Shown here in pieces: positions 1,179-19,513 of a DNA stretch of 19,691 nt (positions are counted from its first letter, which is position 1; each line of letters opens with the position of its first letter). The notes below the pieces were generated by a model that did no database searches, was not told the DNA's origin, and was given only the letters and a program-made list of their open reading frames with translations. Origin of the DNA: Prolixibacteraceae bacterium (GTDB lineage: Bacteria; Bacteroidota; Bacteroidia; Bacteroidales; Prolixibacteraceae). Where the stretch lies: NCBI GenBank assembly GCA_016788685.1, contig JAEUSS010000180.1, positions 1 through 19,691 of the forward strand, given 5' to 3'. The position numbers and the translations under genes were made by a program.

Positions 1179-2384
1179 TTATTTGTTTATGGAATAGGTT
1201 TTTAAAACTTTTCCTGAAGCATCAACCAGCTTGGCCCGGATGCCGGATGAGGTGATGCTGACATCGGTGCGCCAAAGGTTTGAGTTGATCAGGACCGGGA
1301 AGTTGTTGTTTGCTGTTCCTTTTTCGACGAATGAATGCTTGTGGGTGTGGCCGCAAAGCATCAAATCAATACCTGCATCGTTCAGGACAGGCAAAAACAA
1401 ACGGTTAATTTCGGACATGCCATGCCAGCCGTTTCCGAAGGGAGGCATGTGCAGAACTACAATCTTCACAGGAGCTTCCCGGAATTCTTTGGTTTCAACT
1501 ACTTGTTTTAACCATTTTGCTTCCTCTTCCCTCATTTGATCAGAAACCGACAAGCCGTAGTACCGGATATCGCTGTCGGGTTTGTCTTCACCGCAATCCA
1601 TGAAGATAAAATACGCGGGTCCGTGGCGGAATGAATAATAGGCATTGTTGTTCGGGCTGGGGAAATAGTTGAAAAACTCGTATGAAAATGCGCCGCGGTT
1701 TTCGTGATTTCCTCTTACGGCATAAAAGGGTATCTGTGAGGCAAAAAGCTGTGCCGCCGAATTCAGATACCCGTCAATGATCTGGCTCTCCGATTCAATT
1801 TGAGTCAACATGTCGCCGTTAAATACCACAAAGTCCGTTGGTTGGTTTTTCACACCGGATGTAAGTTGCCTGAAGATAGAATCGTTGCCGTGAATGTCGT
1901 TGACCATCGAGAAATTGACTTCATTTTTATCGCGGTCGAGCGTCGTCACGGTGTATGGCTTTTTGTCTTTGATATCGCTTCCGAATCCTTCGCCCAAAAC
2001 TACCCGTTTGTTTCCTTCATTAATCAGCACTGCTTGCTGGAATATACGATAGCGGTATGTTGTTCCTTTTTCCAGCCCGGTTATCCGCACTCTGTGAAGT
2101 TTTCCGGTTAACCGCCGACCGTATTCCGAATGGTAATATTTGGGGCGTTCTTCGTGATAGAAGTTGGTTCCGTCATTGGGAGCGAGCTCAACCCAAACGG
2201 CAGCGTCGATAGTAGTAGTCCATACCACCGTAAACTCATCTTCGCCAACAGCCTGAATCCAGGGACCGCAGGCGATACGTGCGGAAGGAAGCATGCCGGA
2301 TTCGGGGGGGATGTTTATTGATTTGTTTTGAGCTTCAGCGGAGCCAAAACAGAAAAGCAAGATAAAGACCAATAGAGTTTTCAT
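1179..2384 (-). CDS. secreted metallophosphoesterase with purple-acid-phosphatase-like N-domain
   Basis: A 401-residue exported phosphoesterase. A Sec signal peptide (cleavage near residues 18-19, after SAEA) is followed by a fibronectin-III-like domain at about 35-115, resembling the N-domain of purple acid phosphatases and PhoD-type enzymes. A calcineurin-like domain then spans about 155-375. All metal-binding motifs are present: DIH (D163, H165), GD (D191), GNHE (N226, H227), H312 and GHTH (H346, H348). It should hydrolyse phosphate mono- or diesters in the periplasm or outside the cell. It is the last gene of the operon, 62 bp after the HAD gene. The context suggests a glycerol-phosphate-containing substrate; the domain layout recalls Bacillus PhoD, which cuts teichoic acid, but the sequence alone does not fix specificity. 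A run of seven G lies at 2304-2310 in the codons just after the signal peptide; the frame is intact. Confidence 0.88.
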   Translation of the reverse strand: MKTLLVFILLFCFGSAEAQNKSINIPPESGMLPSARIACGPWIQAVGEDEFTVVWTTTIDAAVWVELAPNDGTNFYHEERPKYYHSEYGRRLTGKLHRVRITGLEKGTTYRYRIFQQAVLINEGNKRVVLGEGFGSDIKDKKPYTVTTLDRDKNEVNFSMVNDIHGNDSIFRQLTSGVKNQPTDFVVFNGDMLTQIESESQIIDGYLNSAAQLFASQIPFYAVRGNHENRGAFSYEFFNYFPSPNNNAYYSFRHGPAYFIFMDCGEDKPDSDIRYYGLSVSDQMREEEAKWLKQVVETKEFREAPVKIVVLHMPPFGNGWHGMSEINRLFLPVLNDAGIDLMLCGHTHKHSFVEKGTANNNFPVLINSNLWRTDVSITSSGIRAKLVDASGKVLKTYSINK

Positions 2385-2446
2385 TTTTACTTACAATTAA
2401 TTTATGCTGTATTTTAAAAGTATTTACCTCTGCCCGAACAACAATC

Positions 2447-3319
2447 TTAATCCTGGTAAGCATCAATAAGCATCTGTCCGAATTCTTCCAAATCTTTCGC
2501 GATAATATCCGGCTTGATATCGGAACGTTCTGCAACTTCCGGAGTTGTTTCTCCGGACAAAACCAGCACCCCGAGAGCTTTTGCGTCGTGAGCCATTTTC
2601 ACATCCGTGTAAATGCGGTCACCAACCATGGCAATCTGCGAGGGCTGAAGGTTGCGATTCTGTAAAATGCCGCCGAGCATACGGGGGTTTGGTTTCCCGA
2701 CAACCATATCCGGGGTTTTTCCGGTTGCATGCTCGAGGGCAGCACAAATCGATCCGCAATCGACAAGGATAACTGGTTCGTCGGTCGGGCATACCCTGTC
2801 AGGATTAGTGGCTATATACAGCAAGCCTTTTGAAATCCACCAGGCCGCGCGGCAAAGGCGCGAATACTCCAGAGTGGTGTCGAATCCGATAACTACCGCA
2901 TCGGGGGTATCTGCTGCGTCATTCCGGGCAGACTCAAATCCGGCAGCTTCAAATTCGCCGATCATGCTTGGAGTTCCAAGGATGAATAAACGTTTCACTT
3001 CGGGATGGTTTTTCCGGAGGTACTCAATGGAAGCCAGGGCTGCGGTGTACATTTCGGAGCGCCTGGCCTCGATACCCATTTCTTTCAGGTGTGCCAGGTA
3101 ATCATCAATACTTTTTGACGGGTTATTCGTCAGGAATGAATATTCAATTCCCAGTTCTTTCAGAGTCTTCAGGAATGAAACAGTAAACGGGAACAAGGTA
3201 CTTCCGTTGTATATTGTTCCGTCCATGTCCAGGGCTACATGTCTGATGTTGCGTAAACGTTCCTGTAATTTGTCTGATGAACTGATCTTCATTTCAGTTG
3301 TATAGTTTTGTAAATTCAT
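2447..3319 (-). CDS. HAD-superfamily phosphatase, NagD/AraL type (class IIA)
   Basis: A 290-residue cytosolic HAD hydrolase. The four motifs are clear: DMDGT with nucleophile D31 and acid/base D33, TNN with T64, K209 in VGKPNP, and GDRIYTD with D234 and D239. The long insert between motifs II and III is the C2A cap of the NagD group, which includes Bacillus AraL and mammalian phosphoglycolate/glycerol-3-phosphate phosphatase. The start chosen is 3 bp from the stop of the transporter gene, implying translational coupling; an ATG nine codons further in (3290-3292) is a possible alternative, since the first nine residues look non-conserved. With a GlpT-type importer and glycerol-1-phosphate dehydrogenase immediately upstream, dephosphorylation of glycerol phosphate, dihydroxyacetone phosphate or a related sugar phosphate is a reasonable guess (inference). 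Confidence 0.88.
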   Translation of the reverse strand: MNLQNYTTEMKISSSDKLQERLRNIRHVALDMDGTIYNGSTLFPFTVSFLKTLKELGIEYSFLTNNPSKSIDDYLAHLKEMGIEARRSEMYTAALASIEYLRKNHPEVKRLFILGTPSMIGEFEAAGFESARNDAADTPDAVVIGFDTTLEYSRLCRAAWWISKGLLYIATNPDRVCPTDEPVILVDCGSICAALEHATGKTPDMVVGKPNPRMLGGILQNRNLQPSQIAMVGDRIYTDVKMAHDAKALGVLVLSGETTPEVAERSDIKPDIIAKDLEEFGQMLIDAYQD

Positions 3320-3322
3320 TTT

Positions 3323-4618
3323 TTAGTTGTTTGATCCGTATCCGTCGGCTTTGGCGGGCCATGCCAACAAGAAGGTAAGTGTTCCGGTAATTCCAATTCC
3401 AATTAATGCTCCGATGGCATAATTCCATCCCAGGTGTCCGGCCAGATATCCCAGTCCCCATCCTGAAACCAGCGTGCTCGCGTATCCGAAAAGTCCGGTA
3501 AACCCAACAGCTGTTGCGGCTGCACGTTTGGTGGCCAGATTAGCCGCTGCAATGCCGATCAATGCCTGAGGGCCGTAGATAAAGAAACCGGCAGTCATCA
3601 GGAGTAAAGTAGCAAGCCATGTTGGGGGGGCAGCCAAAGCCCAAAACAGGAAGATAAAAAAGGTGGCAAAGGCCATACAAAAAACGCAGACCCGGGGAGA
3701 GCGTCCTCCAAAAAATCGGTCGGTAGCCCATCCGGCGGTGAGCATGCCAATAATTCCTGAAATCTCAAAACCCGCGACCATCCATCCGGCATGATGGATA
3801 GAAATTCCTTTCCATTCACTCAGTAGTGTTGGTCCCCAGTCGAGCACGGCATAGCGTATGGTGTAGACAAAGAAATTGGCAATGGCAATAATCCAGATGT
3901 ACGGATTTTTGAATACTTTTTTGCGGACGAACTGTTTGAATTCGGCCGGGGTGTCTTTACGTTCTGCTTCTTCCTGTGAAACCCCTTCGGGGCGTATGGC
4001 AGGCAAACCTACCGAAGCCGGCGTGTCGCGCATGGTAAACCAAAGGGCCACAGCACCGGTGAGGGCGATGGCCGCCGGAAGATAAAAGCACCATCTCCAG
4101 CCCATCGTGACCACATAGCCGCAGGTAATCACCACCAGCCCTGCTCCGATAGAGTGAGATGTATTCCAGATCGACATTTTTGTTGCCAGTTCTTTGGGCG
4201 GAATCCAGTGCGTCATCAGGCGGGCGCAGGGTGGAAATCCCATTCCCTGAAACCATCCGTTGATCATCCACACGATCCCCAGTGCCAGCACGCCTGAACT
4301 AAAGCCGAAAATAATGTTGCACACGGCCGAAAGTACTAACCCGGAAACCATAAAGTAACGGGCATTAACCCGGTCGCCGATAAATCCGTTGGCAAATTTC
4401 GAAACCCCGTAGATTAACCCGTGCAGCGTCAGGAAAAGTCCTAATTCGGTTTTTGTTATTCCGAGGTCGGTTTGCATGGCAGGCATTGCAATACTCAGGT
4501 TTTTTCGGACAAAGTAGAATAAAGCATAGCCGATCATACTGGCTATTATTGTTCGGGTTTGCCAGTACTTAAATTTTTTGGCAACTTCCGGAGCCATTGT
4601 ATCTGCGTAATTACTCAT
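3323..4618 (-). CDS. MFS organophosphate:phosphate antiporter, GlpT type
   Basis: A 431-residue inner-membrane transporter with the twelve-helix look of the major facilitator superfamily, organophosphate:phosphate antiporter family. Residues known from E. coli GlpT to line the phosphate site have clear counterparts: R38 in FYFVRKN (GlpT R45), K74 in YGVSKF (K80), H155 in WNTSHSIG (H165) and R255 in VYTIRYAVLDW (R269). Related carriers take glycerol 3-phosphate, hexose phosphates or phosphoglycerate in exchange for phosphate. Between the secreted phosphodiesterases and the two cytosolic glycerol-phosphate dehydrogenases of this operon, glycerol phosphate is the most likely cargo; whether it accepts the sn-1 enantiomer is unknown. 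It follows the dehydrogenase gene by 55 bp and ends 3 bp before the HAD gene. A seven-G run at 3624-3630 leaves the frame intact. Confidence 0.92.
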   Translation of the reverse strand: MSNYADTMAPEVAKKFKYWQTRTIIASMIGYALFYFVRKNLSIAMPAMQTDLGITKTELGLFLTLHGLIYGVSKFANGFIGDRVNARYFMVSGLVLSAVCNIIFGFSSGVLALGIVWMINGWFQGMGFPPCARLMTHWIPPKELATKMSIWNTSHSIGAGLVVITCGYVVTMGWRWCFYLPAAIALTGAVALWFTMRDTPASVGLPAIRPEGVSQEEAERKDTPAEFKQFVRKKVFKNPYIWIIAIANFFVYTIRYAVLDWGPTLLSEWKGISIHHAGWMVAGFEISGIIGMLTAGWATDRFFGGRSPRVCVFCMAFATFFIFLFWALAAPPTWLATLLLMTAGFFIYGPQALIGIAAANLATKRAAATAVGFTGLFGYASTLVSGWGLGYLAGHLGWNYAIGALIGIGITGTLTFLLAWPAKADGYGSNN

Positions 4619-4673
4619 CTTGTTTTTTTCAATATTAGCTTAAATCAGAAACGAAAAGTTTTATTTACTCTTT

Positions 4674-6014
4674 TCAATTTTTTATTTCCCAGATTCCGTT
4701 TTTGCCAAATAATCCGTTCAGCCATTTTTCCAGGTAACCGGTTCGGACAGCAAGGTCGAGCACGGTATATCGGCGACGGATAAACTGGGCACGGATAAAG
4801 GTCTCGCGCAGGCGGGGGCGATCCATGCCGATATCTTCGGGTTCGGTGGGGGCGCCAACCAGTTTTAATCGCCTTTTTGCCTCTTCGTAAGGAACAATCT
4901 GGTTTTTCAGGCGTTCGTGAATTTCCGGCCAGTTGTCTTTAAACTGTTTTAGTTGATGGGCTAACTCTTCCCGCGAAATGTATTTTGCCAGCGCTTCCTG
5001 AGCTCCGATCGTGGGGAAATCAGTTCCGGCGAACATTTGCAGCGCTTCGGTTTCTAATTCTCCGGAAGTGGGCCAGGCTTTGCAGCAGGCATCAATATCC
5101 AGCTCGTTAAAAGGTGTTTTCAGAATTTGCTCGAACAACGCTGTTACAGCCAGCGTTCCGAGGCTAACCTGAAATCCGTGAGAAATATGTTCGCCGTTAT
5201 TTAAGAAATGTTCCATATTCCATAAATGACTGAACTGGTGTTCGGCTCCCGAAGCCGGGCGGCTCGATTTCGACCACTGCATGGCAAAACCACCCAGCAT
5301 CAGTCCTTCAATCAGTTTTGAAATAGCTTCAGGGTTTCCGTCAGCCACTCCCTGCGGATCCGAAAGTGCATCGGCCAAACCATCCTGAACAATTGACCAG
5401 GCTTGCTGATCGATAGGTTCAACGCCGATGCAGTCGGCCAGAATCCAATCGGCACCGGCTGTTATTTTTGCAAATAAATCGGCGTAGCCCGAGGCAGTCA
5501 TTTCGGCCGGGGCTTTGCATATAATATCTACATCGGCCAGGCAAGCCTGTGGTGCCGGACAATTAAACGTTTGTTTGGCTCCGTCAGCGGTTATCGATGC
5601 TCCAAAAGCGGTGTAGCCATCCATTGAAGCTGCGGTGGCCACACACATGTACGGCCTGCCGGTAAGATGTGATGCCAGTTTGGTCAGGTCGTTAATTGTT
5701 CCGGAACCCACGGCAACCGGGATGGCGTCGTGTACCTGCAGGGCAGCAATCAACTGGTCGACAAATGCATATTCGGCGTATAGTTCGGGGTCGTTAAAAA
5801 CAAAGGGGTTCTCTTGTTCAACACCTGCGGCTTTTAATTCTTCATAAACCGTTTGTCCCGCAACCCGGAAGGTTGTCTGGTCTGCAATAACAACGGCTTT
5901 TTTACCTGTAAACTGCTCTTTGAATAACTCAGGAACCTGGTTCAGAATCCCGTTTCCAATCCGCAGCGCGCGAGTCTCGCTCGCTGCAGCCAACGCCTTT
6001 TCTACTCTTGACAT
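4674..6014 (-). CDS. sn-glycerol-1-phosphate dehydrogenase (AraM/EgsA family)
   Basis: A 446-residue cytosolic NAD(P)-dependent dehydrogenase of the iron-alcohol-dehydrogenase/dehydroquinate-synthase-like fold, matching the glycerol-1-phosphate dehydrogenase family (archaeal EgsA, Bacillus AraM). The dinucleotide loop is GSGTINDL (103-110), followed by ATAASMDGY (about 126-134). Likely metal ligands are D179 in SGYADL, H259 in SGAEH and H279 in SHGFQV. The family interconverts sn-glycerol 1-phosphate and dihydroxyacetone phosphate. It is longer than Bacillus AraM (about 394 residues), with extra length mostly at the C-terminal end. In archaea the enzyme makes the lipid backbone; here, beside a glycerol-phosphate importer and secreted phosphodiesterases, the oxidative catabolic direction is more plausible (inference). 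It lies 49 bp after the phosphoesterase lipoprotein gene. Confidence 0.92.
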   Translation of the reverse strand: MSRVEKALAAASETRALRIGNGILNQVPELFKEQFTGKKAVVIADQTTFRVAGQTVYEELKAAGVEQENPFVFNDPELYAEYAFVDQLIAALQVHDAIPVAVGSGTINDLTKLASHLTGRPYMCVATAASMDGYTAFGASITADGAKQTFNCPAPQACLADVDIICKAPAEMTASGYADLFAKITAGADWILADCIGVEPIDQQAWSIVQDGLADALSDPQGVADGNPEAISKLIEGLMLGGFAMQWSKSSRPASGAEHQFSHLWNMEHFLNNGEHISHGFQVSLGTLAVTALFEQILKTPFNELDIDACCKAWPTSGELETEALQMFAGTDFPTIGAQEALAKYISREELAHQLKQFKDNWPEIHERLKNQIVPYEEAKRRLKLVGAPTEPEDIGMDRPRLRETFIRAQFIRRRYTVLDLAVRTGYLEKWLNGLFGKNGIWEIKN

Positions 6015-6063
6015 TTCTGTATCTTTATGTTTTTATAATTTATTCACTGATTTAGCGCAGTTC

Positions 6064-7671
6064 TTAATAGGAAGCTGCGGTAATGTAATTCGAAATAATC
6101 TGACTCTGCTTATAAACGGTACCAAACCGGTCAGTTGCCCTGATTTCCAGCGTGGCATTTGGATTTACCATGGTATGCACGTAGAGGTGTTTGCACGAGG
6201 TGGTGTAATTGTCCGGATTCCGGTTTAATACACCAATGTGATAGCCGACACTCCAGGCGTCAGTTGAGGTGGGCAATACATTCAGATCGGCCACTTTAAC
6301 TCCGTTCTCAAAAGCCTCCACTTTCCATTGGCTGTCCGAGTTCCATACGTTGGCAATCACAGTGTTTGCACCTTTATTAAATGTAAAAGATCCGTATTGT
6401 CCGCCAAAAGCTTCGTCTCCTTTGTGTAATCTGATCTGAAAGTCCTTGCTCAGCTTTGTTGGTTTATAGAACCAGTTGGTGATCTGGGCGCCGCTTATTT
6501 CGTAAACGGCATAACCGTTGGGGGTTCCGTCGCCGTTAAGCGTTGATCTCCACCATGCACCGCAAGCTGCCGAATGAATATGCTCATAGGTCGTTATTGG
6601 CGATGTAATGGTGTAGTTTTCAGTATAGTGAGTGTGGCCGCACATTAAGTGAACTTCAGCAAATCCGTTCAACGCATTAAGCATTTTCGTCCGGTTCTGA
6701 ATGCTGGAAGTATTCCGAATCGGAATATGATAGTAAACAATAACCATCTTGCTTTTCGGAACATAGCTCAGATCTTGCTCTAACCACGCAATCTGACTAT
6801 CGGTAAAACCTCCTGAATAGGTTGACGAGTTGGTGTAGATGACATTGTCGAGACAAACGAAATGCACATTTCCCCGGTTAAAAGAGTAATTCACCGGACC
6901 GTAGACCTTGTCAAAATCGCTTGTCGTCCGCGGGGCGCTGGTATTTGTCGTGGCTACCTTGTCATGATTTCCTATTGTTGTAAAAACAGGCATGGTGCCC
7001 GATCCGATTGTCACCTTCATTTGCTCGAAGAAAGCAGGTTTATCGCCAACCATGTCTCCCATAGCCAATCCGTAGCATGGCACGGTTGCTGATTCGGTAA
7101 ATGCTTTTATGTCGGGCATGGTTTCTGTTTTGAAACGGTTGATATCATCCGTGCTGGTGACCTGCGGGTCGCCGATACAGAGCAGGTTGAAATTTGTTTC
7201 AACGGCGGCAAGTTTTTTCAGTTTAAAATCGTGCCTTTGGGTTGTACCGATTTCAGAATAAAACGATGCCATTTTTACAGATTCGCTTGCCGTATTTATT
7301 GCGTATTCGGCTGGTGTTGAGTAAAACACGAATTTGGCATTCGAGTTTTTCTTCATTTGGTAAATTCCCTTTGTATCTGTTTTGGTGCAGGAGAATCCGT
7401 CGCTGACAACCACGTCTTTAACCGGGTTGCCGTTGTTATCGCCAATATATCCGTACAGGTTCATTCCGGCTTCAGGTGTTATCTCCACCACTGAAGGATC
7501 CGGATTATCGGGGATGTCCGGTGAGCTTTTGCTGCATTGCGTAAATGTGAGAACGACGGCCAGCATGAGTAAATATATGCGGGATAGCCTTCGGGTATTG
7601 ATGCTTACCCAACTTAAATAATTTTCTGAAATTGATTTATTCCTGTTCATATTCATTTCTTTTGTTTTCAT
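6064..7671 (-). CDS. calcineurin-like phosphoesterase lipoprotein with N- and C-terminal accessory domains
   Basis: A 535-residue exported phosphoesterase. The N-terminus has a basic stretch, a hydrophobic segment and a lipobox-like FTQC with C46 as the probable lipidated cysteine, so it should sit on the outer membrane or in the periplasm. Domain order is an Ig/carboxypeptidase-regulatory-like N-domain (about 70-150, MetallophosN type), the catalytic domain (about 160-360) and a beta-rich MetallophosC-type C-domain (about 390-520). Catalytic motifs are GDPQ (D168, with Q170 where many relatives have histidine), GD (D206), GNHD (N235, H236) and GHTH (H346, H348). The Q at the first motif is common in this subfamily and need not mean loss of activity. 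The leader before the hydrophobic segment is unusually long (about 30 residues); in-frame ATGs at codons 6 and 8 are alternative starts. It starts 16 bp after the GH78 gene. A phosphodiesterase or phosphomonoesterase acting on the locus substrate is likely. Confidence 0.87.
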   Translation of the reverse strand: MKTKEMNMNRNKSISENYLSWVSINTRRLSRIYLLMLAVVLTFTQCSKSSPDIPDNPDPSVVEITPEAGMNLYGYIGDNNGNPVKDVVVSDGFSCTKTDTKGIYQMKKNSNAKFVFYSTPAEYAINTASESVKMASFYSEIGTTQRHDFKLKKLAAVETNFNLLCIGDPQVTSTDDINRFKTETMPDIKAFTESATVPCYGLAMGDMVGDKPAFFEQMKVTIGSGTMPVFTTIGNHDKVATTNTSAPRTTSDFDKVYGPVNYSFNRGNVHFVCLDNVIYTNSSTYSGGFTDSQIAWLEQDLSYVPKSKMVIVYYHIPIRNTSSIQNRTKMLNALNGFAEVHLMCGHTHYTENYTITSPITTYEHIHSAACGAWWRSTLNGDGTPNGYAVYEISGAQITNWFYKPTKLSKDFQIRLHKGDEAFGGQYGSFTFNKGANTVIANVWNSDSQWKVEAFENGVKVADLNVLPTSTDAWSVGYHIGVLNRNPDNYTTSCKHLYVHTMVNPNATLEIRATDRFGTVYKQSQIISNYITAASY

Positions 7672-10224: not shown

Positions 10225-12000
10225 TTACTCCCAACCATCGTTTTGCGGTAATAAATTCGGATTTAAAGTGACTGCACTTTGAGGGATTGGCCTCAGGTAT
10301 TTTTTGTCGTCCCATTTCCGCTCAATACCCCAGGCCCAGATTAAATGTCCTTTGGTTACTTCAGAAAGCTTAATGTTTGCGCCCAGCACAACATATTTCA
10401 CTCCGGGAGTTGTTGTCGTTGGAGTTTTATCAACAATGCAGATATCAGCTTTTCCGTCGCCGTTCAGGTCATAGTTCACATTTTTGGCCGGAATATAAAT
10501 TCCTTTCCAGAGCATTTTTCCGGAATCCAGTAAATCGCCGGATTTCCATCTCATCAGGTCCTGGTAGCGGAGTCCTTCAAAACAAAGTTCGATGCCACGT
10601 TCGCGTCTGATTTCCAGTAAATATTTATCTGATATGTTTGGGAAAAAGGTTGTTTTCAGATAGTCGTCGGCCGTGGCAGGCACAGCACCCGAAACCCCGG
10701 CTCTGACCCGGAGTGGTTTGATGGTTTGTTCCCATTCCACCGGACCAAACTCTCCCAGCTCTGCTTTGGCTTCAGCATAGTTCAGGAGCACTTCGGCATA
10801 CCTGATGACAGGTATATTATTGGTACATTGGCCTTGTCCATCGTGCCACGAATCGTCCAGACTCCATTTTTTAATGTGGTAACCGGTTAGTGTAACAGCA
10901 AAGTCAGGAGGGGCAATGGTTCCGTTTTCCCGGTAATAACCTTCTGTCCGGATAGTTTGGCTCAGGCGGTAATCGCGGTTTTTCATCTCGGTATAAAATT
11001 CAATCTCGTCATAACCGGTTTTGTCGGTAAAGCGGCTTCCGTCGCGCATCAGGTATGAGTTTACGAATTGTTTGATCAGCGACCAGCGGCTGCCGTTGGT
11101 CGGAGAGTTGAAATTCCAGGTCAAATCGTGCCAAACCCGAGATTCGGTATTCATTACTCTGGCCAATATAACTTCTCCGGAGATTTTGGACATACTGCCC
11201 TGATCTTCTGAAACAAATAAGGTTCTGTAGTCAGTTTCCGGGTTTCCGGTGCTGTACAGGCGGTACTGGTTGGCATCCATCAGTGCTTTGGCGGCATCAG
11301 CGGCTTCGCGCAGCCAGGTATTGGCATCGGAGAGGCCCAGTTCTGGATGATATTTGCGGTAAGTACCTTCGTAGAGGCAGATTCTGGATTTCATGGCCAG
11401 TGCGGTGAACCGGTTAACCAGGCTGCTGTAGGTGTCTTTGGTTTCGCGCAGGTGGGTGGCGGCAAAAGTAATGTCTTCCAATACCTTGCCCATGACGAAC
11501 TCGCGGCTGTCGCGCCCTTTGTTCAATTCGGGGTCGTCCGGATTCATGGCTTTTTCATACCACGGGACGGCACCAAAAGTCTGTACTTTATTCAGATAAA
11601 AGACCGCTCTCCAATAGCGTGCAAGTCCGAGGTAATGGTTTAAAACAGCTTCAGAAACAGGAGCTTTCGGAGCACGTTCCAGAAAGTAATTGATGTTGCG
11701 CAGGGCACTCCAGTTGCTAATGCCCCAACCTGACTGGTCAACCGAGCTCCAGTCGCCCGAAAAGAACGTACTGGGCGTGTTTATTGCCCCGTAGTCTGAA
11801 GTTCCGTCAGCTTTTGCAATATCATCAGCTGTAGGGAGGTCGTTGGTATAGAACGAATAGGAGTATATTTTCAGATCATTTTCAGAAGTGAAAAAAGTAG
11901 CGGCTTCCAGTTGATGTATTGGTTCCTTCTCCAACAGATCGTCACAGGAGGAGAAAGCGATGCTGCCTGCCAGTAGTGAATATATAATTATCTTTTTCAT
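10225..12000 (-). CDS. SusD/RagB-like nutrient-binding outer-membrane lipoprotein
   Basis: A 591-residue surface lipoprotein of the SusD family. The signal peptide ends in a lipobox with C19, followed by DDLLEKEP, typical of SusD proteins. The N-terminal TPR-containing half (about 20-300) has conserved stretches such as NYFLERAP and LGLARYWRAVFYLNKVQTFG; the C-terminal SusD domain includes VIRYAEVLLNYAEAKAELG (about 420-440) and RRERGIELCFEG. It should act as the lid that delivers ligand to the SusC channel encoded 11 bp upstream. Length is in the normal range. The ligand cannot be read from the sequence; the neighbours suggest a phosphoglycerol-bearing oligomer. Confidence 0.95.
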   Translation of the reverse strand: MKKIIIYSLLAGSIAFSSCDDLLEKEPIHQLEAATFFTSENDLKIYSYSFYTNDLPTADDIAKADGTSDYGAINTPSTFFSGDWSSVDQSGWGISNWSALRNINYFLERAPKAPVSEAVLNHYLGLARYWRAVFYLNKVQTFGAVPWYEKAMNPDDPELNKGRDSREFVMGKVLEDITFAATHLRETKDTYSSLVNRFTALAMKSRICLYEGTYRKYHPELGLSDANTWLREAADAAKALMDANQYRLYSTGNPETDYRTLFVSEDQGSMSKISGEVILARVMNTESRVWHDLTWNFNSPTNGSRWSLIKQFVNSYLMRDGSRFTDKTGYDEIEFYTEMKNRDYRLSQTIRTEGYYRENGTIAPPDFAVTLTGYHIKKWSLDDSWHDGQGQCTNNIPVIRYAEVLLNYAEAKAELGEFGPVEWEQTIKPLRVRAGVSGAVPATADDYLKTTFFPNISDKYLLEIRRERGIELCFEGLRYQDLMRWKSGDLLDSGKMLWKGIYIPAKNVNYDLNGDGKADICIVDKTPTTTTPGVKYVVLGANIKLSEVTKGHLIWAWGIERKWDDKKYLRPIPQSAVTLNPNLLPQNDGWE

Positions 12001-12011: not shown

Positions 12012-15000
12012 TTAAAAAGTGATGTTAACTCCCAGCGTAAAAGTTTTCAGCATGGGGTAGCTGTATCCGTTTTCTGAATTTGAGTTAGAGGCAATGTCGC
12101 TGTCTCCGGTTTCAATTACTTCAGGGTCAAAGTTGTTCGTGTGTTTGGTCAGGCCGGTCAATGTCCAGAGGTTCTCTCCGGTGACGTAGAATTTGACAGC
12201 CGACATTTTCACTTTTGATGTCAGGTTCGACGGCAATGTATAATCTAACGTCAATGATTTTAGCCGGATGTAAGCAGCATTCTGCAGGTACCTGTTGTTT
12301 TTGACTCCCATGGGTTTAGAGGTCGAGTTTGCCATGTAGGTTCTCAGGCGCGGCCAGTAAGCATTCGGGTCTTCGTTCACACCTTCAATCCACATGTTTC
12401 CAACCTGATCGGTTGGGTAATATCCGTAATGACGGTTGTATTGCCCCCAGAAATAACCCGACTCAATGTCCGGATACCAATCGCGTTTTCCGACACCCTG
12501 AAAGAAAGCACTGATGCCAAATCCTTTATAGTTTGCGCCCAGGTTTATCCCGAAACGATACCGCTGTTCTTCGTTGCCAATGATGCTTAAATCACCATGG
12601 TCGTCCAGGGTATTTTTTCCTCGATAAACTTCACCGTCGTTGTTGGAGTCTCTGAACTTAAGGTCGCCGGGGAGTAATATTTTACCTTTTGAAACCGCGA
12701 TTTTTGACTGATCAGCATGGTTGGCAATTTCTTCGGCGCTGGTAAACAAGCCATCGATGGTATATCCCCAGATATCGCCAATGCGCTGGCCGACGTAGTA
12801 TGAACTAAGAAACTGGTTTTCGTTGCCCAGGTATTTGGTAATCCAGCTTTGGCTGTCCCAGATCATAAACTTAACGTTGTACGACAGATCGCTGCCTGCA
12901 ACCTTGACGCGGTCTTTCCAGCCAATTGTAAATTCCCATCCGATTGTTTTCAGGTCAGCATAGTTTCCTCTCGGAGAGGCCGAACCCAGCACCTGCGGGA
13001 GGTCTGGTCCTAAAACATACATGTCGGTGGTATTTCTGCGGTATAAATCGAAAGCAACATTAAGCTTGCTTTTCAACATGTCAGCGTCTAATCCAACGTT
13101 GTAGGTTGTCGCTTTTTCCCAGGTCAGGTTATCAGGAATAAGGTCCGGCAATGATGTGTAAGTCTGAAAGCCGCCGTTGAGGAGCAGCGAAGTTTTGGAT
13201 ACCTCCATCAAGTCGAGATAGTCGTAAGGCTCAACATTTCCGTTTCCTAATGTTCCGGCCGAAAGGCGGAGTTTCAGGTTATCCAGCCAGCTTTTGGTGT
13301 TGCTCATAAAACCCTCGTCTGAAATACGCCAACCGAATGATGCTGAAGGGAAAATACCCCATTGTTCATTGGTCGGAAATTTGGAAGATCCATCGTAACG
13401 ACCACTCATCTCAAACAGATACTTCCCTTTGTATGAGTAGTTTGCCCGCATGAAAACTCCAACAAAACCCCAGTCGGAACTTCTTTCTTCCATGACAAAA
13501 TTTATCCCGTCCATCAGTATAAAATTGGGTTTATCCGGATATAAGTAGCTGTCCCTTCTGTTGTAAAGATTCCTTCTGGTCGACGATTCGACATTACCAC
13601 CCAGCAGGACATTCAGCGAATGGTTTTCTCCGAGCTTGGGAGTCAGGTTTGCTGTGAAATTGCTGGCAAAATAATTGGTTTCCTGGTTCCACATTCTCCT
13701 CAGCGATTGTCCTTTTTCTGCAAACAGGGCGGGTCCTTCGCTGTACGGTGCGTAGCGGTTAACGCGTGTTCTTTGGTAGTCTTTGTAACTGTATGTAACA
13801 TCGCCTTTGAAGGTCAGGACATCTTTAACCGGAGAGTAGGTTACTCCGATGGTATTTCTGACATTCAGTGTGTTGTCGTCCTGATAAGAAGTCTTGTTGT
13901 GAAAATCGCCTACTCCGTTGTAAATGGACGAATACGTATAAGTTCCGTCGGGATTGAATAAAGTAGCAACCGGATAACCCTGGTGTTCAAGGTTGCGTTG
14001 TACCAGTTCATCGGCGTATGACAGCAGCGGATAACGATATTTGGTGTAATCGATAGCGAAGTTGTTGTCGATAGTCAGATTCGGACTAATCTTGATTTGT
14101 CCTTTCGCTCTTAAGTTGTATCGGTTCAGGTCGTCAGAATTATATCTGTAAACACCGTCCTGAGAGAAGTATCTTCCTGAAATGTAGTAGCTTGACTGGT
14201 CGTTGCCTCCGTTGATGCTCAGTTTGTGGTCGGTTCCCTGAGTCCAGTCTTTATACAAAAGTCTGTCCCAATCAGTATTCCCGAAATATTCGTATCGGCC
14301 ATCGGCAGTCACCCGGGTTCTGGGCAGTTCCGGATTGTCATTTCTCCTTTTTAATTCATCATACCATGATCTGGAGAACGGGAAAACGTTGTTGATCGTG
14401 GTTGGGTCGGCAGCTGAGTAATCGTTATATCCGTAGTAGGCATTTAAGAAAGAGGTGGTCCATTCGTAACCGTTGGTAACAAACGATGGTTCTACCGTTC
14501 TGGTCAGGAAAGAGAAATTTCCGTCGTAGTTGATCTTTACACCACCTTTATTGGCTTTTTTGGTTGTAATCAGCACAACCCCGAATGTACCGCGTGCGCC
14601 GTACACTGCAGCGGATGAGGCATCTTTCAGTACCGAAACGCTTTCGATGTCCTGAGGGTTAATGGTACTGGGGTCGCCTTCAACTCCGTCAATCAGAACC
14701 AATGCGCTACCGCCGGCTCCGATGGAAGTTTGTCCGCGAACGTTATAGCTTGCGCCGCTGGTTGGTTTCCCATCGCGCATGGTAATATTTAAATTGGGAA
14801 TCTGTCCTTGCAAACTGCGGGTGATGCTTGGATTCGGACGGCTTTCAATCGTTTCAGAAGTAATTTGGTCGACGGCACCAATCAGGTCACGTTTTTTTGC
14901 CGTTCCGTAACCAATGACCACAACTTCGTCAATTTCCGAAAGGTCAGCTTTCAAGGTTACATCTACTGTTGTCCTGCCGTTAACTTCTATGGTGGCAGTT

Positions 15001-15305
15001 GTAAACCCGATGTATGAGAACGATAACTTAGCCTGGCTGTCGGCCATTTGTATCCGGTATCGTCCGTTGGCATCAGTCACGGTTCCGTTGGTAGTTCCTG
15101 AAATATAAACCGTTGCGCCAACAAGAGGAGCGCCATCTGTATCAACAACGGCACCAGTAACGGTGTGCGATTGCTGAAGAGTTGCAGTTTCGGCCTCAAC
15201 ACCTTCTTTTTCCGTTGCGCGAAGTTCGGAGCTCCACGCAATAAAGAAGATGAAGGTTAAAGCAATTATTGGAATTTTCTTCCATAATTTATATGTTAAC
15301 AACAT
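12012..15305 (-). CDS. SusC/RagA-like TonB-dependent outer-membrane transporter
   Basis: A 1097-residue SusC-family transporter. After a signal peptide (about 1-30) comes a carboxypeptidase-D-regulatory-like domain (about 47-118, with VVDTDGAPLVGATV and NGTVTDANGRY). A TonB-box-like DEVVVIGYG lies at about 126-134, then the plug (about 135-250, with VRGQTSIGAGG and VLKDASSAAVYGARG) and the barrel to the C-terminus, which ends in the phenylalanine usual for outer-membrane barrels. There is no N-terminal STN domain, so direct anti-sigma signalling through this protein is not expected. It should import the locus substrate using TonB energy. The gene is 82 bp after the unknown lipoprotein gene and 11 bp before susD. 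Confidence 0.96.
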   Translation of the reverse strand: MLLTYKLWKKIPIIALTFIFFIAWSSELRATEKEGVEAETATLQQSHTVTGAVVDTDGAPLVGATVYISGTTNGTVTDANGRYRIQMADSQAKLSFSYIGFTTATIEVNGRTTVDVTLKADLSEIDEVVVIGYGTAKKRDLIGAVDQITSETIESRPNPSITRSLQGQIPNLNITMRDGKPTSGASYNVRGQTSIGAGGSALVLIDGVEGDPSTINPQDIESVSVLKDASSAAVYGARGTFGVVLITTKKANKGGVKINYDGNFSFLTRTVEPSFVTNGYEWTTSFLNAYYGYNDYSAADPTTINNVFPFSRSWYDELKRRNDNPELPRTRVTADGRYEYFGNTDWDRLLYKDWTQGTDHKLSINGGNDQSSYYISGRYFSQDGVYRYNSDDLNRYNLRAKGQIKISPNLTIDNNFAIDYTKYRYPLLSYADELVQRNLEHQGYPVATLFNPDGTYTYSSIYNGVGDFHNKTSYQDDNTLNVRNTIGVTYSPVKDVLTFKGDVTYSYKDYQRTRVNRYAPYSEGPALFAEKGQSLRRMWNQETNYFASNFTANLTPKLGENHSLNVLLGGNVESSTRRNLYNRRDSYLYPDKPNFILMDGINFVMEERSSDWGFVGVFMRANYSYKGKYLFEMSGRYDGSSKFPTNEQWGIFPSASFGWRISDEGFMSNTKSWLDNLKLRLSAGTLGNGNVEPYDYLDLMEVSKTSLLLNGGFQTYTSLPDLIPDNLTWEKATTYNVGLDADMLKSKLNVAFDLYRRNTTDMYVLGPDLPQVLGSASPRGNYADLKTIGWEFTIGWKDRVKVAGSDLSYNVKFMIWDSQSWITKYLGNENQFLSSYYVGQRIGDIWGYTIDGLFTSAEEIANHADQSKIAVSKGKILLPGDLKFRDSNNDGEVYRGKNTLDDHGDLSIIGNEEQRYRFGINLGANYKGFGISAFFQGVGKRDWYPDIESGYFWGQYNRHYGYYPTDQVGNMWIEGVNEDPNAYWPRLRTYMANSTSKPMGVKNNRYLQNAAYIRLKSLTLDYTLPSNLTSKVKMSAVKFYVTGENLWTLTGLTKHTNNFDPEVIETGDSDIASNSNSENGYSYPMLKTFTLGVNITF

Positions 15306-15387: not shown

Positions 15388-16875
15388 TTATTTGTCGACA
15401 AATACGGTGCAGTCGGTTGAGTTTTCAATATCAGCGACCGATGCGCCCGGAAGGTCTTTCATATTAAATACGAACGGAGTCCCGCTTCTCGGAACCAACC
15501 ATTCGGTTGGGGTAACCTGCCCGCCAAGTTTAATGAAAACGCCCACATCAGTTGCCGGAACCGGAAACAGGAATGTATTTGTGCCTTGTCCAAACAAAGT
15601 CTGAGGTTCGCCTGTAACCGGATTCGATCTTTCGTACACGTCGTTATCAGGAATCTGATAAGCCTGGAAAGTAATTTTGGTACCAAAGAAAATGGCATCG
15701 ACCGGGACCGTGTTTTCGTCAACATGGGTTCCTTTAAAAACAGCTATACCATCAGGATTGCTTTTGGTTACTGTTGCCTGAGATGTTCCCGAACCGTTTC
15801 CCAGAAGACCTCCGCCAGCTTTGGCGGCTCCGTTGTTGTTTCCTCCCGGAGTGGCAGAGTAATCAATTCCCCAGAATTTGCTTTTATCCAGCTGAGGGCT
15901 TCCCAATAACTGGTAATAACTGCATATCATTCGGGAGCCACCTCCTACGTAGAAATATTGACCTTTTTTTACCGAACCAGTTTCCAGATTCATCTGGTAA
16001 ACTTTTTTACTTGTTGCAGTGTAAATTCCGTCAGCCCAGCCTGTTGAGGTAGGAGTCCCGGTATTGGTAAAGATTACGCTATAATTCACTTCTGAGAAAT
16101 CAATATCTTTCAGAGCCATCAGCTGCACATACTCGTATTGTCCCGGATGAACAAATCCGTCACCTGAAACGGCTCCGGTGTTTGGACTGTCGGAACCTTT
16201 GGGGTCGCTCAGGAAACCGGTAATCACAATATCAGTATTGTGGAATATCCGGCGAAGCATAAATGACTCGGAATTGCTTAATCCTGCACCAACACTCGAA
16301 ACTGATTGTTTGAAAACCGACAGGTTCTCATCATCATAAACATAAACGTTGTAAGTTCCGACAACTGTTTTCGGAAAAGTAACTTTGCCTTGAGCGTCTG
16401 ACAGGCTTTCCTTTATTAAAACAGGATTGGTATCAGTCGTATATAAAGCCACTTTTCTGCCCGCGATCGGATTCTGTCTGTTGTCCTTTAGTAACACATC
16501 GAAGTCGTAATTTTCGACAAAAACATTGATAGACCATTCAATAACATTCAGTGAATTATCTTTTTCAATGATTATTTCAGTCGATCCGATTTCGTTTTCG
16601 TTCGCGTCAATGGCTTTAAGTGTGTATTTTCGGGGTTCGAGGCTGGTAAAACTTCCTTTACCCAGAACAGACGTGTAGGTTGAATCAACAACAAAGCCAG
16701 GTTTCTGATCAGTATAAAAAACCTTTAACCAAACGCCGGAAAGAGGTACTCCGTCATTGTTGGTTAGTGTCAGGCTGCAATCGTTAATCTCGGGCAAGGC
16801 CGGATCTTTAAATTTGTCACAAGCTGTCAGTAAAACAGCAGCCATGAAAAAAATAAAAACAATTTTTTGTTTCAT
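15388..16875 (-). CDS. outer-membrane-type lipoprotein of unknown function with duplicated beta-domains
   Basis: I do not recognise this 495-residue protein. The signal peptide ends in lipobox LLTAC with C19. Two similar Ig/carboxypeptidase-regulatory-like modules follow at about 32-90 and 123-181, both with an N-x-x-P-(L/I)-x-G entry, a YTD or TTD turn, a GKG or GKV strand and a K/TY exit, which suggests an internal duplication. Residues from about 214 begin DIVITGFLSDPKGS, then EYVQLMALKDIDFSE; this loosely resembles lamin-tail-type beta-sandwiches, but that is only a visual impression. A glycine/asparagine-rich linker lies at about 343-365. No catalytic motif is visible. It sits 82 bp upstream of susC, where surface glycan-binding proteins often lie in such loci, so a ligand-binding surface lipoprotein is the best guess. 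Confidence 0.8.
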   Translation of the reverse strand: MKQKIVFIFFMAAVLLTACDKFKDPALPEINDCSLTLTNNDGVPLSGVWLKVFYTDQKPGFVVDSTYTSVLGKGSFTSLEPRKYTLKAIDANENEIGSTEIIIEKDNSLNVIEWSINVFVENYDFDVLLKDNRQNPIAGRKVALYTTDTNPVLIKESLSDAQGKVTFPKTVVGTYNVYVYDDENLSVFKQSVSSVGAGLSNSESFMLRRIFHNTDIVITGFLSDPKGSDSPNTGAVSGDGFVHPGQYEYVQLMALKDIDFSEVNYSVIFTNTGTPTSTGWADGIYTATSKKVYQMNLETGSVKKGQYFYVGGGSRMICSYYQLLGSPQLDKSKFWGIDYSATPGGNNNGAAKAGGGLLGNGSGTSQATVTKSNPDGIAVFKGTHVDENTVPVDAIFFGTKITFQAYQIPDNDVYERSNPVTGEPQTLFGQGTNTFLFPVPATDVGVFIKLGGQVTPTEWLVPRSGTPFVFNMKDLPGASVADIENSTDCTVFVDK

Positions 16876-16934
16876 AAAATTTAGTTTTTAGTTGTAAATC
16901 AAATCTTCCGGATTTTCACTCGGAGGAACGTTTC

Positions 16935-16969: not shown

Positions 16970-17003
16970 CGTAATATATGGTTGCGGGTTTCTCTTTGTC
17001 GGT

Positions 17004-17909
17004 TTATCTTTTCTGAAGAACAGACCATATCTCGGTAGGAATATCTGACTCAATGATATCGGGGTTTGTCTTCAATTCTTCGGAATATGCTTTTTGACGG
17101 TCGGTGCTGTTACTCAGTTTGTCATGGGTGGGTGAATAAGAAACCATGCACCGCACGCCTTTGGCATGAAGTGATTCTACAATCTTGCCGTTTTTTGAGT
17201 TGATCGTCGGGCCAACGTAGGCAATCATGTTTTCCCACGGCACTCCGGATTTGTCAATGTCTTCATATTCCTTTTCGGTACGGGCAAAGGCTGACATCAT
17301 AATGCCGGGAAACCGGTCGTAGTAATACCGGGCTTGTTCTCCGGAGTGGACTGTCAGCATCACATGTTTCTGAGCCTTGTGTTTCTTGATCAGGTCTGCG
17401 ATCATGCGCATCGGAACATCTTTTTTGTCCAGATTGATGATTGTCTTCCCTTTGCTCCATACGATAACCTCTTCCAATGTTGGTATTTTCGACGGAGTAA
17501 CATGTCCTTCGCTGTCTTTCAGTCTTACCGACTGCAGTTCGGCCCAGGTATAGTCCGCCAGTTTGCCTTTCGCGGTTGTGGTTCGGTCCAGGGTTGCGTC
17601 GTGCATCAGCACAATAACACTATCCTTGGTTAGTCTCGGATCAATTTCGAAAAATGCGGGCATCTGTCTGAGGACATTCCCAAAGCCTTCCAGACTATTT
17701 TCCGGATAGCCTTTTTCGCGCCCGCCGCGATGCCCGCTAACCAGCACAGAACCGTCGTTCTTGTATTTAAAATAGCTTTGCAGCTTTTTGGTGTTCTTAA
17801 AATCGAGGTAGTTCTTTCCTGATTTTTGAGCCACCAGGTTGCTTCCGGAAAAAAGCATCAAAAAGGTGATTGCTGCAATTCTTAAAAAAGAAAATCTAAT
17901 TGGGTTCAT
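17004..17909 (-). CDS. secreted glycerophosphodiester phosphodiesterase
   Basis: A 301-residue GDPD-family enzyme with a Sec signal peptide (cleavage near residue 27, after LVA), so it acts in the periplasm or beyond. The family motifs are in order: HRGG (H60, R61), PENS (E70), FEID (E88, D90) and VLMHD (H103), with H60 and H103 as the expected catalytic pair and E88/D90 as metal ligands. A later INLDKK segment is also typical. The family hydrolyses glycerophosphodiesters to an alcohol and glycerol phosphate, usually the sn-3 form; GlpQ of Bacillus also trims poly(glycerol phosphate) teichoic acid. It lies 32 bp downstream of the glpD-like gene, which consumes the product, and 128 bp before the lipoprotein gene. 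The type is clear; the substrate is inferred only from context. Confidence 0.93.
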   Translation of the reverse strand: MNPIRFSFLRIAAITFLMLFSGSNLVAQKSGKNYLDFKNTKKLQSYFKYKNDGSVLVSGHRGGREKGYPENSLEGFGNVLRQMPAFFEIDPRLTKDSVIVLMHDATLDRTTTAKGKLADYTWAELQSVRLKDSEGHVTPSKIPTLEEVIVWSKGKTIINLDKKDVPMRMIADLIKKHKAQKHVMLTVHSGEQARYYYDRFPGIMMSAFARTEKEYEDIDKSGVPWENMIAYVGPTINSKNGKIVESLHAKGVRCMVSYSPTHDKLSNSTDRQKAYSEELKTNPDIIESDIPTEIWSVLQKR

Positions 17910-17941
17910 TTTGAGTCAGGTTTTATTTCAGTAATACTTTT

Positions 17942-19513
17942 TTATCCTACCAGAACATAGCCTTTAGCCAGCGTTGTGAAATCTCTCACTTGCTGTTTGA
18001 CCCATTCTTCCGTTTGGTTCATCTCCTTGGCCATTACAGAAGCGACTTTCGGAGCCATTTCAATGGCGGCTTTGGCATCGAGGAACAAGGCTCTTACGCG
18101 TCGCGCCAAAACATCTTCCACCGTTTGTGCTTGTTCTTCCCTCACTGCCCAGACCACATGAGCAACAGTAAACGTGTAGTCTTTATGCAAAAGAGATGCA
18201 TGCTCCTTGTCTTCTTTGATCAGGGCATTAATCTTTTCAGCATCGCTGCCGTAAACGTAGTTCCAGTTTGTCATGTCTGTTTTTTCGGCATAACCGTGCA
18301 CCTTCATATTTTTAGTCACGCATTTCTTTGGAGTCAGGTTACCCATTTCAATGGCGAGGTCAATAGCTTCTTCAGCCATTTCGCGGTAGGTGGTCCATTT
18401 TCCCCCGGTGATGGTAAGCAAGCCTGATTTTGATTTGTATATTTTGTGGTTTCTCGAAATCTCTTTGGTTTTCTGGGTGTCATTGTTGCTCGGGGCGGCT
18501 AAAGGACGAAGTCCGGCAAATACCGACAGAACATCGGCGCGGGTTGGCTTCATCTCAAGATACTGGCCAGCCTGATCGAGAATGAAATTCACTTCTTCTT
18601 CCAGTGCCTGTGGTTCCAATTCTGATTCTTTCAGCGGAGTGTCAGTTGTTCCCAAAACTACTTTTCCGTGCCAGGGGACACCGAATAATACGCGTCCGTC
18701 TTTGGTTTTAGGAATCATCAGTGCTGAGTTGCCGCCAAGGAACTTGCTGTCGACAACCAAGTGAACACCCTGGCTCGGACGAATCTTCTTTTTCGACTCC
18801 GGAATATCCATTTTCATGACATCGTCGACAAAAACACCTGTTGCATTAATTACGACTTTCGTTTTGAAGGTGTATGACTCGCCGTTCAGTTGATCTACTG
18901 CATATACTCCGGAGAGTTTTCCGGAGCTATCTTTGATTAGCTTTTCAACTTTTATATAGTTGAGGCATATGGCACCATGGTCTACCCCCGTCTGTGCAAG
19001 GGTGACGGCCATCCGGGCATCGTCAAATTGTCCGTCGTGGTAAACAACGCCTCCTTTCAGGCCTTCCTGTTTCAGTCCGGGAATTTCTTTTCTGATGGTT
19101 TTCCTCAGTAAAGGTAATGAGCGCCCCAAACCTAAGCGGCCGGCAAGGATATCATAGAGTGTTAGCCCGATGGTGTAAAAAGGCTGTTCCCACCAACGGT
19201 AGTTTCCGATAATGAAACGCATGTCTTTTACCAGGTGAGGAGCGTTCCGACGCATGCGGCCACGTTCGTGAAGTGCTCCTATTACCATTTGCACATCGCC
19301 TTGTGCCAAATAGCGCACTCCGCCGTGAACCAGTTTGGTGCTTCGGCTCGATGTTGCTTTTGCAAAGTCATCCTGATCAAGAAGCACCACTTTGTATCCC
19401 CGGGAGGCCGCATCCACGGCAGTTCCAAGTCCGGTAGCCCCACCACCTATGATTAAAATATCACATGTGTAGTCTTGTTGGCAAATTTCTTTCAACAAAA
19501 CATCTCGTTTCAT
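17942..19513 (-). CDS. glpD: FAD-dependent glycerol-3-phosphate dehydrogenase
   Basis: A 523-residue GlpD-type flavoenzyme that oxidises sn-glycerol 3-phosphate to dihydroxyacetone phosphate and passes electrons to quinone at the inner membrane. The FAD Rossmann motif GGGATGLG is at residues 23-30. It is followed by the family stretch TSSRSTKLVHGGVRYL (about 54-69), then INATGVFVDDV (about 226), GVPWHGKVVLGTTDTP and LLTITGGKWTTYREMAEEAID in the C-terminal part of the FAD domain, and the alpha-helical C-terminal domain. Length fits the family (about 500-555). It is the first gene of the operon, with a recognisable promoter about 50 bp upstream. Its quinone coupling implies a respiratory chain in the host. 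The gene symbol rests on clear family resemblance. Confidence 0.95.
   Translation of the reverse strand: MKRDVLLKEICQQDYTCDILIIGGGATGLGTAVDAASRGYKVVLLDQDDFAKATSSRSTKLVHGGVRYLAQGDVQMVIGALHERGRMRRNAPHLVKDMRFIIGNYRWWEQPFYTIGLTLYDILAGRLGLGRSLPLLRKTIRKEIPGLKQEGLKGGVVYHDGQFDDARMAVTLAQTGVDHGAICLNYIKVEKLIKDSSGKLSGVYAVDQLNGESYTFKTKVVINATGVFVDDVMKMDIPESKKKIRPSQGVHLVVDSKFLGGNSALMIPKTKDGRVLFGVPWHGKVVLGTTDTPLKESELEPQALEEEVNFILDQAGQYLEMKPTRADVLSVFAGLRPLAAPSNNDTQKTKEISRNHKIYKSKSGLLTITGGKWTTYREMAEEAIDLAIEMGNLTPKKCVTKNMKVHGYAEKTDMTNWNYVYGSDAEKINALIKEDKEHASLLHKDYTFTVAHVVWAVREEQAQTVEDVLARRVRALFLDAKAAIEMAPKVASVMAKEMNQTEEWVKQQVRDFTTLAKGYVLVG

Follow-up and report, generated by a model that had tools for sequence, protein, structure and literature searches.

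A SusC/SusD operon with phosphoester and glycerol phosphate genes from a Prolixibacteraceae bacterium, possibly serving the use of phosphoglycerol-containing polymers

Gene content of the operon

The stretch of DNA analysed here (the window; 19,691 nucleotides) is one whole contig, JAEUSS010000180.1 of the assembly GCA_016788685.1, from a Prolixibacteraceae bacterium (Bacteroidota; Bacteroidales), and it is occupied for the most part by an operon in which a SusC/SusD pair (SusCD) lies among genes of phosphoester and glycerol phosphate metabolism. A description made from the sequence alone (the initial annotation) had listed eleven co-directional genes; indeed, all eleven are present and open on the minus strand, from position 19513 to 1179, with intergenic gaps of 3 to 230 bp. 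From the upstream end, they are:

17942..19513, minus strand: GlpD-like FAD sn-glycerol-3-phosphate (G3P) dehydrogenase, 523 aa; PF01266 and PF16901 (DAO/DAO_C)
17004..17909, minus strand: secreted glycerophosphodiester phosphodiesterase (GDPD), 301 aa; PF03009; PDB 3mz2 at E 1.6e-90; HRG, ExD and HD motifs
15388..16875, minus strand: LP495 lipoprotein, 495 aa; lipobox LTAC; prealbumin/SpaA/Ig-like matches
12012..15305, minus strand: SusC/RagA TonB-dependent transporter, 1097 aa; TIGR04056 at 844 bits (cut-off 368)
10225..12000, minus strand: SusD (SusD_RagB) lipoprotein, 591 aa; PF07980; within a supported clade of SusDs linked to glycerol-1-phosphate dehydrogenase
7688..9994, minus strand: secreted GH78-like 6-hairpin glycosidase, 768 aa; PF17389 (Bac_rhamnosid6H); aligned to RhaB 2okx
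6064..7671, minus strand: lipoprotein metallophosphoesterase MPE1 (MetallophosN/Metallophos/MetallophosC), 535 aa; PF16371/PF00149/PF16370; GNHD and GHTH motifs
4674..6014, minus strand: sn-glycerol-1-phosphate (G1P) type (AraM/EgsA-like) dehydrogenase of the Fe-ADH_2 family, 446 aa; PF13685; profile of the G1P dehydrogenase (G1PDH) 9h4x at E 1.3e-54
3323..4618, minus strand: GlpT-type organophosphate:phosphate antiporter (MFS), 431 aa; PDB 1pw4 (GlpT) at E 8.6e-78
2447..3319, minus strand: cytoplasmic HAD-IIA phosphatase (NagD/PGP-like), 290 aa; TIGR01460 over cut-off; PDB 1vjr at E 2e-59; DMDGT, TNN, GKPNP and GDR motifs
1179..2384, minus strand: secreted metallophosphoesterase MPE2 of purple acid phosphatase type, 401 aa; PF00149 and PF16656; NDIHG, GD, GNHE and GHTH motifs

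The susC and susD genes are adjacent, with 11 bp between them. A single glycoside hydrolase had been claimed, and by Pfam the GH78-like gene is the only carbohydrate-active enzyme of the operon; in its alignment to RhaB it keeps the D, E and D of the DCPxxExxxWxxD region, which we take to be catalytic. As judged by eye, lipobox-like N-termini are found in LP495 (LTAC), SusD (SSC) and MPE1 (TQC) and ordinary signal-like peptides in the GDPD, the GH78-like enzyme and MPE2, and neither a signal peptide nor a lipobox is seen at the N-termini of GlpD, the 446-aa dehydrogenase and the HAD enzyme. The structure model of LP495 is all-beta (pLDDT 91) with pilin/Ig-like matches at low TM, and that of MPE1 gives a weak match to the purple acid phosphatase fold (E 5e-8, TM 0.34); neither fixes a substrate, and LP495 probably binds a ligand at the cell surface. 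Only 178 bp of contig remain upstream of GlpD, so that the promoter and any regulator lie outside the view.

Predicted enzymes for both enantiomers of glycerol phosphate

The initial annotation spoke of two glycerol-phosphate dehydrogenases, which is right for the GlpD-like one (G3P) but needs refinement for the other, since the latter is of the G1P type. The closest solved relative of the GlpD-like protein is the G3P dehydrogenase 3da1 (8e-78), with GlpD 2qcu at 4.3e-48, and its score of 291 bits lies below the NCBIfam equivalog cut-off of 360. The top NCBIfam model of the 446-aa dehydrogenase is the G1P dehydrogenase NF002022 (180 bits, below the cut-off of 413), and its nearest solved structures are the G1P dehydrogenases 9h4x, 4rgq and 4rfl. 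Its Asp and His positions, presumably those of the metal site, align with those of archaeal G1PDHs, and it has in common with archaeal and characterised G1PDHs the motif SRPASGxEHxxSH, which is present in 69 of 74 members of its cluster. The operon therefore pairs enzymes for both enantiomers, and both dehydrogenases are expected to give dihydroxyacetone phosphate (DHAP).

The phosphate site of the GlpT-type antiporter is intact, as had been claimed: the two Arg and the His of Escherichia coli GlpT are aligned (R45, R269 and H165 in what we take to be the E. coli numbering, with presumed roles in the phosphate site). The gene scores 323 bits against the equivalog TIGR00712 (below its cut-off of 633) and best against the PgtP subfamily TIGR00881 (363 bits, cut-off 408), and its best solved relative is GlpT.

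Linkage in related genomes

Two samples were searched, namely 119 relatives (the window's own genome, G000, included) and 319 genomes of the order, which overlap in G000, G077 and G090; in addition, a scan of named genomes gave 221 G1PDH relatives, the best 80 of which were kept, and all counts out of 80 refer to these best 80 of 221. Lack of conserved linkage in related genomes had been named as a result that would speak against the phosphoglycerol interpretation. Instead, G1PDH (at least 56%), GDPD (E ≤ 1e-60) and close GlpT (63-100%, with G035 at 58%) share exactly the same five of the 119 genomes; weak G1PDH matches (at most 33%) occur in four further genomes, and GlpT at E ≤ 1e-60 in eight in all, the remainder at no more than 47%. 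Such an exact overlap would have a chance of about 5.5e-9 if the genomes were independent, an assumption that does not hold. Among the 319 order genomes, G1PDH (E ≤ 1e-100) was found in six and GDPD (E ≤ 1e-60) in six, with both in four where about 0.1 (6 x 6 / 319) is expected. On account of this co-occurrence in both samples, a chance neighbourhood of these genes was rejected.

Within 8 kb of G1PDH, GlpT was found in 58/80 loci, HAD in 60/80, GDPD in 25/80 and GlpD in 12/80 (any of the four in 71/80; we refer to G1PDH with such partners as the module), and the gene directly downstream of G1PDH is GlpT or HAD in 64 of the 80. Verrucomicrobia account for 12/80. In 28 of 81 loci, the module has a DeoR-type cluster nearby (one member of which is annotated), on the strand opposite to G1PDH in 26 of these 28. 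Genes of glpB and glpC clusters adjoin the module in L052, L068 and L078 (annotated in L068); with their G1PDH-GlpT-HAD order and a second GlpT, these three loci are perhaps combined operons for both enantiomers that do without SusCD.

The SusCD pair and its relatives

A SusD at E ≤ 1e-150 was found in five of 140 family genomes (80-100% identity), all five of which carry G1PDH, HAD and GlpT; in this SusD-anchored search, with at most nine SusD candidates scored per genome, no counter-example to the link between SusD and G1PDH was met. Maribellus luteus XSD2 and Mariniphaga anaerophila DSM 26910 are both among the carriers of the SusD orthologue. Two Maribellus genomes keep the window order GlpD-GDPD-LP495-SusC-SusD-GH78-MPE1, followed by an RbtT-G1PDH-HAD-GlpT order of their own (RbtT being a polyol transporter of the RbtT/DalT/CsbX type), and their SusCD are 79-81% like those of the window, as against 59% for G1PDH and 54-55% for GlpT. 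The order in G024 is GDPD-G1PDH-GlpT-HAD-LP495-SusC-SusD-sulfatase-MPE1-RbtT-MPE2, and the Mariniphaga contig begins at LP495, with MPE1 and GH78 not found in the 20 kb examined. An RbtT-type transporter is present in all four of these other SusD-orthologue loci and missing from the window.

In a SusD tree of 33 rows, nine G1PDH-linked SusDs (two of them near-copies) from Prolixibacteraceae, Prevotellaceae, Porphyromonadaceae, Dysgonomonadaceae and the window fall into a single clade (100/99), and three other SusDs that neighbour a G1PDH (L058, L059, L063) fall outside it. Eight of the nine came from G1PDH-anchored searches, and the five that are at least 80% alike (window included) were found again by the SusD-anchored search. 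By contrast with this single SusD clade, the eight G1PDH partners of the SusCD clade are scattered over a G1PDH tree of 77 rows (four of 81, namely L064, L066, L090 and L093, were excluded because of a stop in the matched segment), with six changes, at least five of them forced by supported branches; some clustering of the SusCD label remains, with as low a count in 13 of 500 shuffles. Specifically, the SusDs of the window and of L082/L091 are at least 80% alike, and their G1PDHs lie on opposite sides of a supported branch. We read this pattern as one type of SusCD having been exchanged between, or joined repeatedly to, different G1PDH modules; losses of SusCD elsewhere will have added to the count of changes.

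More distant relatives were sought in 395 phylum and 393 order genomes (at most three SusD candidates scored per genome), which gave 21 homologues (40-49%) besides the window's gene; 16 of them make up a clade that is sister to that of the window (99/94), and the other five lie on a further branch. An Exo_endo_phos-like gene lies near 13 of the 21 (L120, L121, L123-L127, L129, L131, L136, L138-L140), within about 1.5 kb of SusD in all but L127, where it is farther; Pfam confirmed six of these 13, and detection at these loci is favoured by the probes, which were drawn from seven of the 21. Other neighbours are a GDPD in L134 (L134:7531-8655, fused to a PKD domain and directly adjoining the distant SusD homologue) and a PF04185 phosphoesterase in L122, and none was found in 6/21. 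As a control, 30 of the 33 SusD matches of the window's own genome were inspected to about 1.5 kb on either side (the cases having been searched out to about 9 kb or as far as the contig reached), and 3/30 had an Exo_endo_phos-like gene, or 1/27 once the window SusD and two homologues already counted are left out. With 13/21 vs 1/27, phosphoesterase-like neighbours tend to accompany the SusDs of the wider branch, and the SusDs so neighboured are possibly another phosphoester type of SusCD. LP495 points to an association with phosphoesterases as well, since its homologue in Myroides pelagicus (P0056) bears an Exo_endo_phos domain. Such neighbours are no proof of phosphoester substrates, given that in Flavobacterium, as reported in PMC8812569, mutating the gene of a lipoprotein of the endonuclease/exonuclease/phosphatase family left phosphatase activity unchanged.

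Downstream of the operon, Sir2 and comF (window 3-1023) are adjacent to each other in the window and separated by two to five genes in all seven congeners inspected. No operon gene was found in the 9-14 kb comF/Sir2 stretches of these seven, and a SusD at E ≤ 1e-150 was found in none of 22 congeners besides the window's own genome; on these grounds, the operon looks acquired. On the other side of comF, gene content varies among the congeners, as it does at an insertion site.

Proposed substrate and alternative explanations

In our judgement, belief running slightly ahead of doubt, this is a SusCD operon for the uptake and catabolism of an oligomer or polymer that contains phosphoglycerol, the likeliest form of which would be a polyglycerol phosphate of the teichoic acid type. 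We infer for it a route in which substrates, localisations, directions and order of cleavage would be as follows. The substrate, imported as an oligomer, would be captured by LP495 and SusD and pass through SusC; its phosphodiesters and phosphomonoesters would be cut in the periplasm by GDPD, MPE1 and MPE2, and its sugar removed by the GH78-like enzyme. Glycerol phosphate, presumably in both enantiomers, would be taken up via the GlpT-type antiporter, after which the sn-3 enantiomer would be oxidised by GlpD and the sn-1 enantiomer by the G1PDH-type enzyme working in the catabolic direction, both to DHAP, with any excess probably dephosphorylated by the HAD enzyme. Work on GlpQ (PMC7086022) describes wall teichoic acid (WTA) as a G3P polymer and lipoteichoic acid (LTA) as a G1P polymer, with cut LTA exposing G3P ends; feeding on polymers of these types would thus yield both enantiomers, which matches what the operon should oxidise. 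The suggested identity of the polymer follows from this stereochemistry together with the poverty of glycosidases: the presence of a SusCD pair points to a substrate that exceeds a free head group in size, and the scarcity of these enzymes to a backbone of phosphodiesters more than to a decorated glycan. Further candidate substrates are lipid head groups and other alditol phosphates. We lean against, while regarding as possible, a more far-reaching version, in which Bacteroidota would have SusCD loci for poly(alditol phosphate) of the teichoic acid type, importing WTA/LTA fragments of Gram-positive bacteria or like capsules and burning both glycerol phosphate enantiomers, with the phylum's G1PDH mainly catabolic and the neighbouring GlpT branch carrying G1P.

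Several observations weigh against a phosphoglycerol polymer as the substrate. GlpD, GlpT and G1PDH are all under the NCBIfam equivalog cut-offs, so that their exact substrates are uncertified. Linkage has its gaps: G035 has G1PDH and GDPD on separate contigs; of the 319 order genomes, two have GDPD without G1PDH (50-51%, the surrounding stretches that were inspected being free of module genes) and two have G1PDH without this GDPD (those of L067 and L074, where GlpT, HAD and GlpD are close by); and within 8 kb, some contigs being short, there is no GlpT match in 22/80 loci, no GDPD match in 55/80 and none of GlpT, HAD, GDPD and GlpD in 9/80, including L056 of the SusD clade. Most of the 80 G1PDH loci show no SusCD related to that of the window, from which it follows that the module works without a SusCD of this type. 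Conversely, among 18 loci that surround other SusD homologues only one has phosphoglycerol genes, and the 17 without any speak for a generic SusCD of a glycan polysaccharide utilisation locus, a candidate that was set aside as weakened by the G1PDH-linked SusD clade and by the Exo_endo_phos-like neighbours of related SusDs. In G024, a gene with CAPSR (L016:3826-5406), presumably a sulfatase motif, stands where the window has its GH78-like gene, and a plain polyglycerol phosphate leaves the sugar or sulfate part that these two genes imply unexplained; the earlier assignment of this PF00884 gene as phosphoglycerol-transferase-like was dropped on account of the CAPSR. Finally, the RbtT-type transporter occurs in 12/80 loci (among them L079:8714-9970, L016:917-2152, L082, L090 and L091), seven of the 12 being without GlpT, and G1PDH has an FGGY kinase of the L-ribulokinase type next to it in 4/80 (L098:12215-13885, L040, L082, L099); in each of these two clusters, one member is annotated. 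The substrate may hence hold a second polyol, and that a second product is ribitol or arabitol, which would still be compatible with teichoic acids, is speculation.

The same transporter and kinase favour another explanation, in which the dehydrogenase and the HAD enzyme act on some other alditol phosphate (one derived from ribitol or arabitol, for example), as they would in operons of the arabinose type, with glycerol phosphate being incidental; B. subtilis araM sits in the ara operon (PMC5059525). We hold this to be quite improbable, as the partners of the module are GDPD, GlpT and GlpBC, 11 of the 12 RbtT loci also hold GDPD, GlpD or GlpT, and SRPASGxEHxxSH is found in characterised G1PDHs as well. 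Less improbable, if still unlikely, is the scavenging of phosphate from assorted phosphodiesters (e.g. glycerophospholipid head groups) with carbon secondary, for which the precedent is PusCD of Flavobacterium, a polyphyletic group of SusCD found beside phosphodiesterases and phosphomonoesterases and induced only under phosphate depletion (PMC8115612, Lidbury et al.). The operon's two secreted phosphoesterases, the Exo_endo_phos-like neighbours of related SusDs and a GDSL esterase close to the Maribellus and Mariniphaga modules agree with it. However, carbon use is better suited by two dehydrogenases leading to DHAP and by a GlpT-type antiporter, which lets phosphate out and glycerol phosphate in, and the DeoR-type gene near the module in 28 of 81 loci may also point away from scavenging.

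The G1P could also be of archaeal lipid origin, the locus recycling backbones or head groups of archaeal phospholipids. Marine bacteria import G1P via GpxB and UgpB, which has been studied as recycling of archaeal G1P (PMC12718374), and several metagenome-assembled genomes with the module seem to derive from gut or digester, as judged from isolate names. Nevertheless, this origin is very improbable: SusCD, the GH78-like enzyme and GlpD are unnecessary for such recycling, none of the eleven genes belongs by Pfam to an ether-cleaving enzyme family, and the module is present in Pedobacter, which we take to be an aerobic genus. Most doubtful of all is an anabolic G1PDH that supplies G1P to the synthesis of ether lipids, or of phospholipids based on G1P, and owes its place in the operon to accident. 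The bacterial enzyme is treated as one of lipid synthesis in PMC5059525, PMC7852524, PMC6431249 and PMC13400652, and orthologues were reported in only two of the 12 FCB phyla surveyed in PMC6431249, a paper that also considers GGGPS/DGGGPS working in reverse to break down archaeal lipids. Against this stand the strong linkage with catabolic genes and the usual absence of the G1P prenyltransferase: PcrB/GGGPS (PF01884) was not found in 25 of 28 distinct genomes, the window's own included (G090 and the genome of L053 counted once; 24/80 named loci covered), the three exceptions being G077 and the genomes of L066 and L079, while the positive control gave matches in 7/14 control genomes, including B. 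subtilis and four archaea. Ether-lipid synthesis was judged unlikely because of this absence, which nevertheless leaves room, to the detriment of a catabolic role, for a route independent of PcrB, as PlsY and PlsC accept both stereo-forms and G1P may be used by PlsY (PMC13400652).

Significance and comparison with known systems

If the operon does serve a phosphoglycerol polymer, (i) SusCD nutrition would extend from glycans towards phosphodiester polymers, (ii) the bacterial G1PDH, biosynthetic in the lipid-divide literature cited above, would gain a testable catabolic role and (iii) some Bacteroidota would be predicted to be consumers of a polymer abundant in the cell walls of Gram-positive bacteria, which bears on phosphorus and carbon turnover in gut and soil. 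The initial annotation had called this an unusual type of SusCD substrate. A phosphoglycerol route that is conserved and tied to one SusCD clade supports the claim, and the pairing of SusCD with phosphodiesterases is not new, given PusCD (PMC8115612). As in PusCD, a SusCD-like pair lies beside secreted phosphodiesterases and phosphatases (here GDPD, MPE1 and MPE2), and some PusCD clusters include inner-membrane organophosphate transporters; regulation may be of another kind, with a DeoR-type gene near the module in relatives of the window, and the main text of PMC8115612 holds no word starting with 'glycerol' or 'teichoic'. Uptake and recycling of G1P by bacteria would be shared with GpxB/UgpB, which differ from the window as PhnT and CUT1 family transporters from marine bacteria; the main text of PMC12718374 does not contain 'AraM', 'G1PDH' or 'GlpT', and has 'glycerol-1-phosphate dehydrogenase' in its references only. 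In the open-licence literature, no SusCD locus with catabolic genes for both glycerol phosphate enantiomers was found. The operon is therefore best seen as a variation on the known theme of SusCD with phosphodiesterases, to which it adds a set of both-enantiomer genes not found in print.

The window's G1P-type enzyme shares with B. subtilis AraM and archaeal EgsA the Fe-ADH_2 family, the metal-site residues and SRPASGxEHxxSH, but is longer (446 aa), remains under the NF002022 cut-off and stands in a catabolic context that is mostly without PcrB. SusC/SusD, an extra lipoprotein, secreted hydrolases and an inner-membrane transporter are features of a classical polysaccharide utilisation locus; however, where such a locus is expected to have several carbohydrate-active enzymes, the operon has one glycosidase, and the remainder is phosphoester and glycerol phosphate metabolism. 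There is likeness also to the E. coli glp system, in which GlpQ, GlpT and GlpD represent the same succession of GDPD, antiporter and dehydrogenase, and to which the window adds SusCD import, metallophosphoesterases and a dehydrogenase for the opposite enantiomer.

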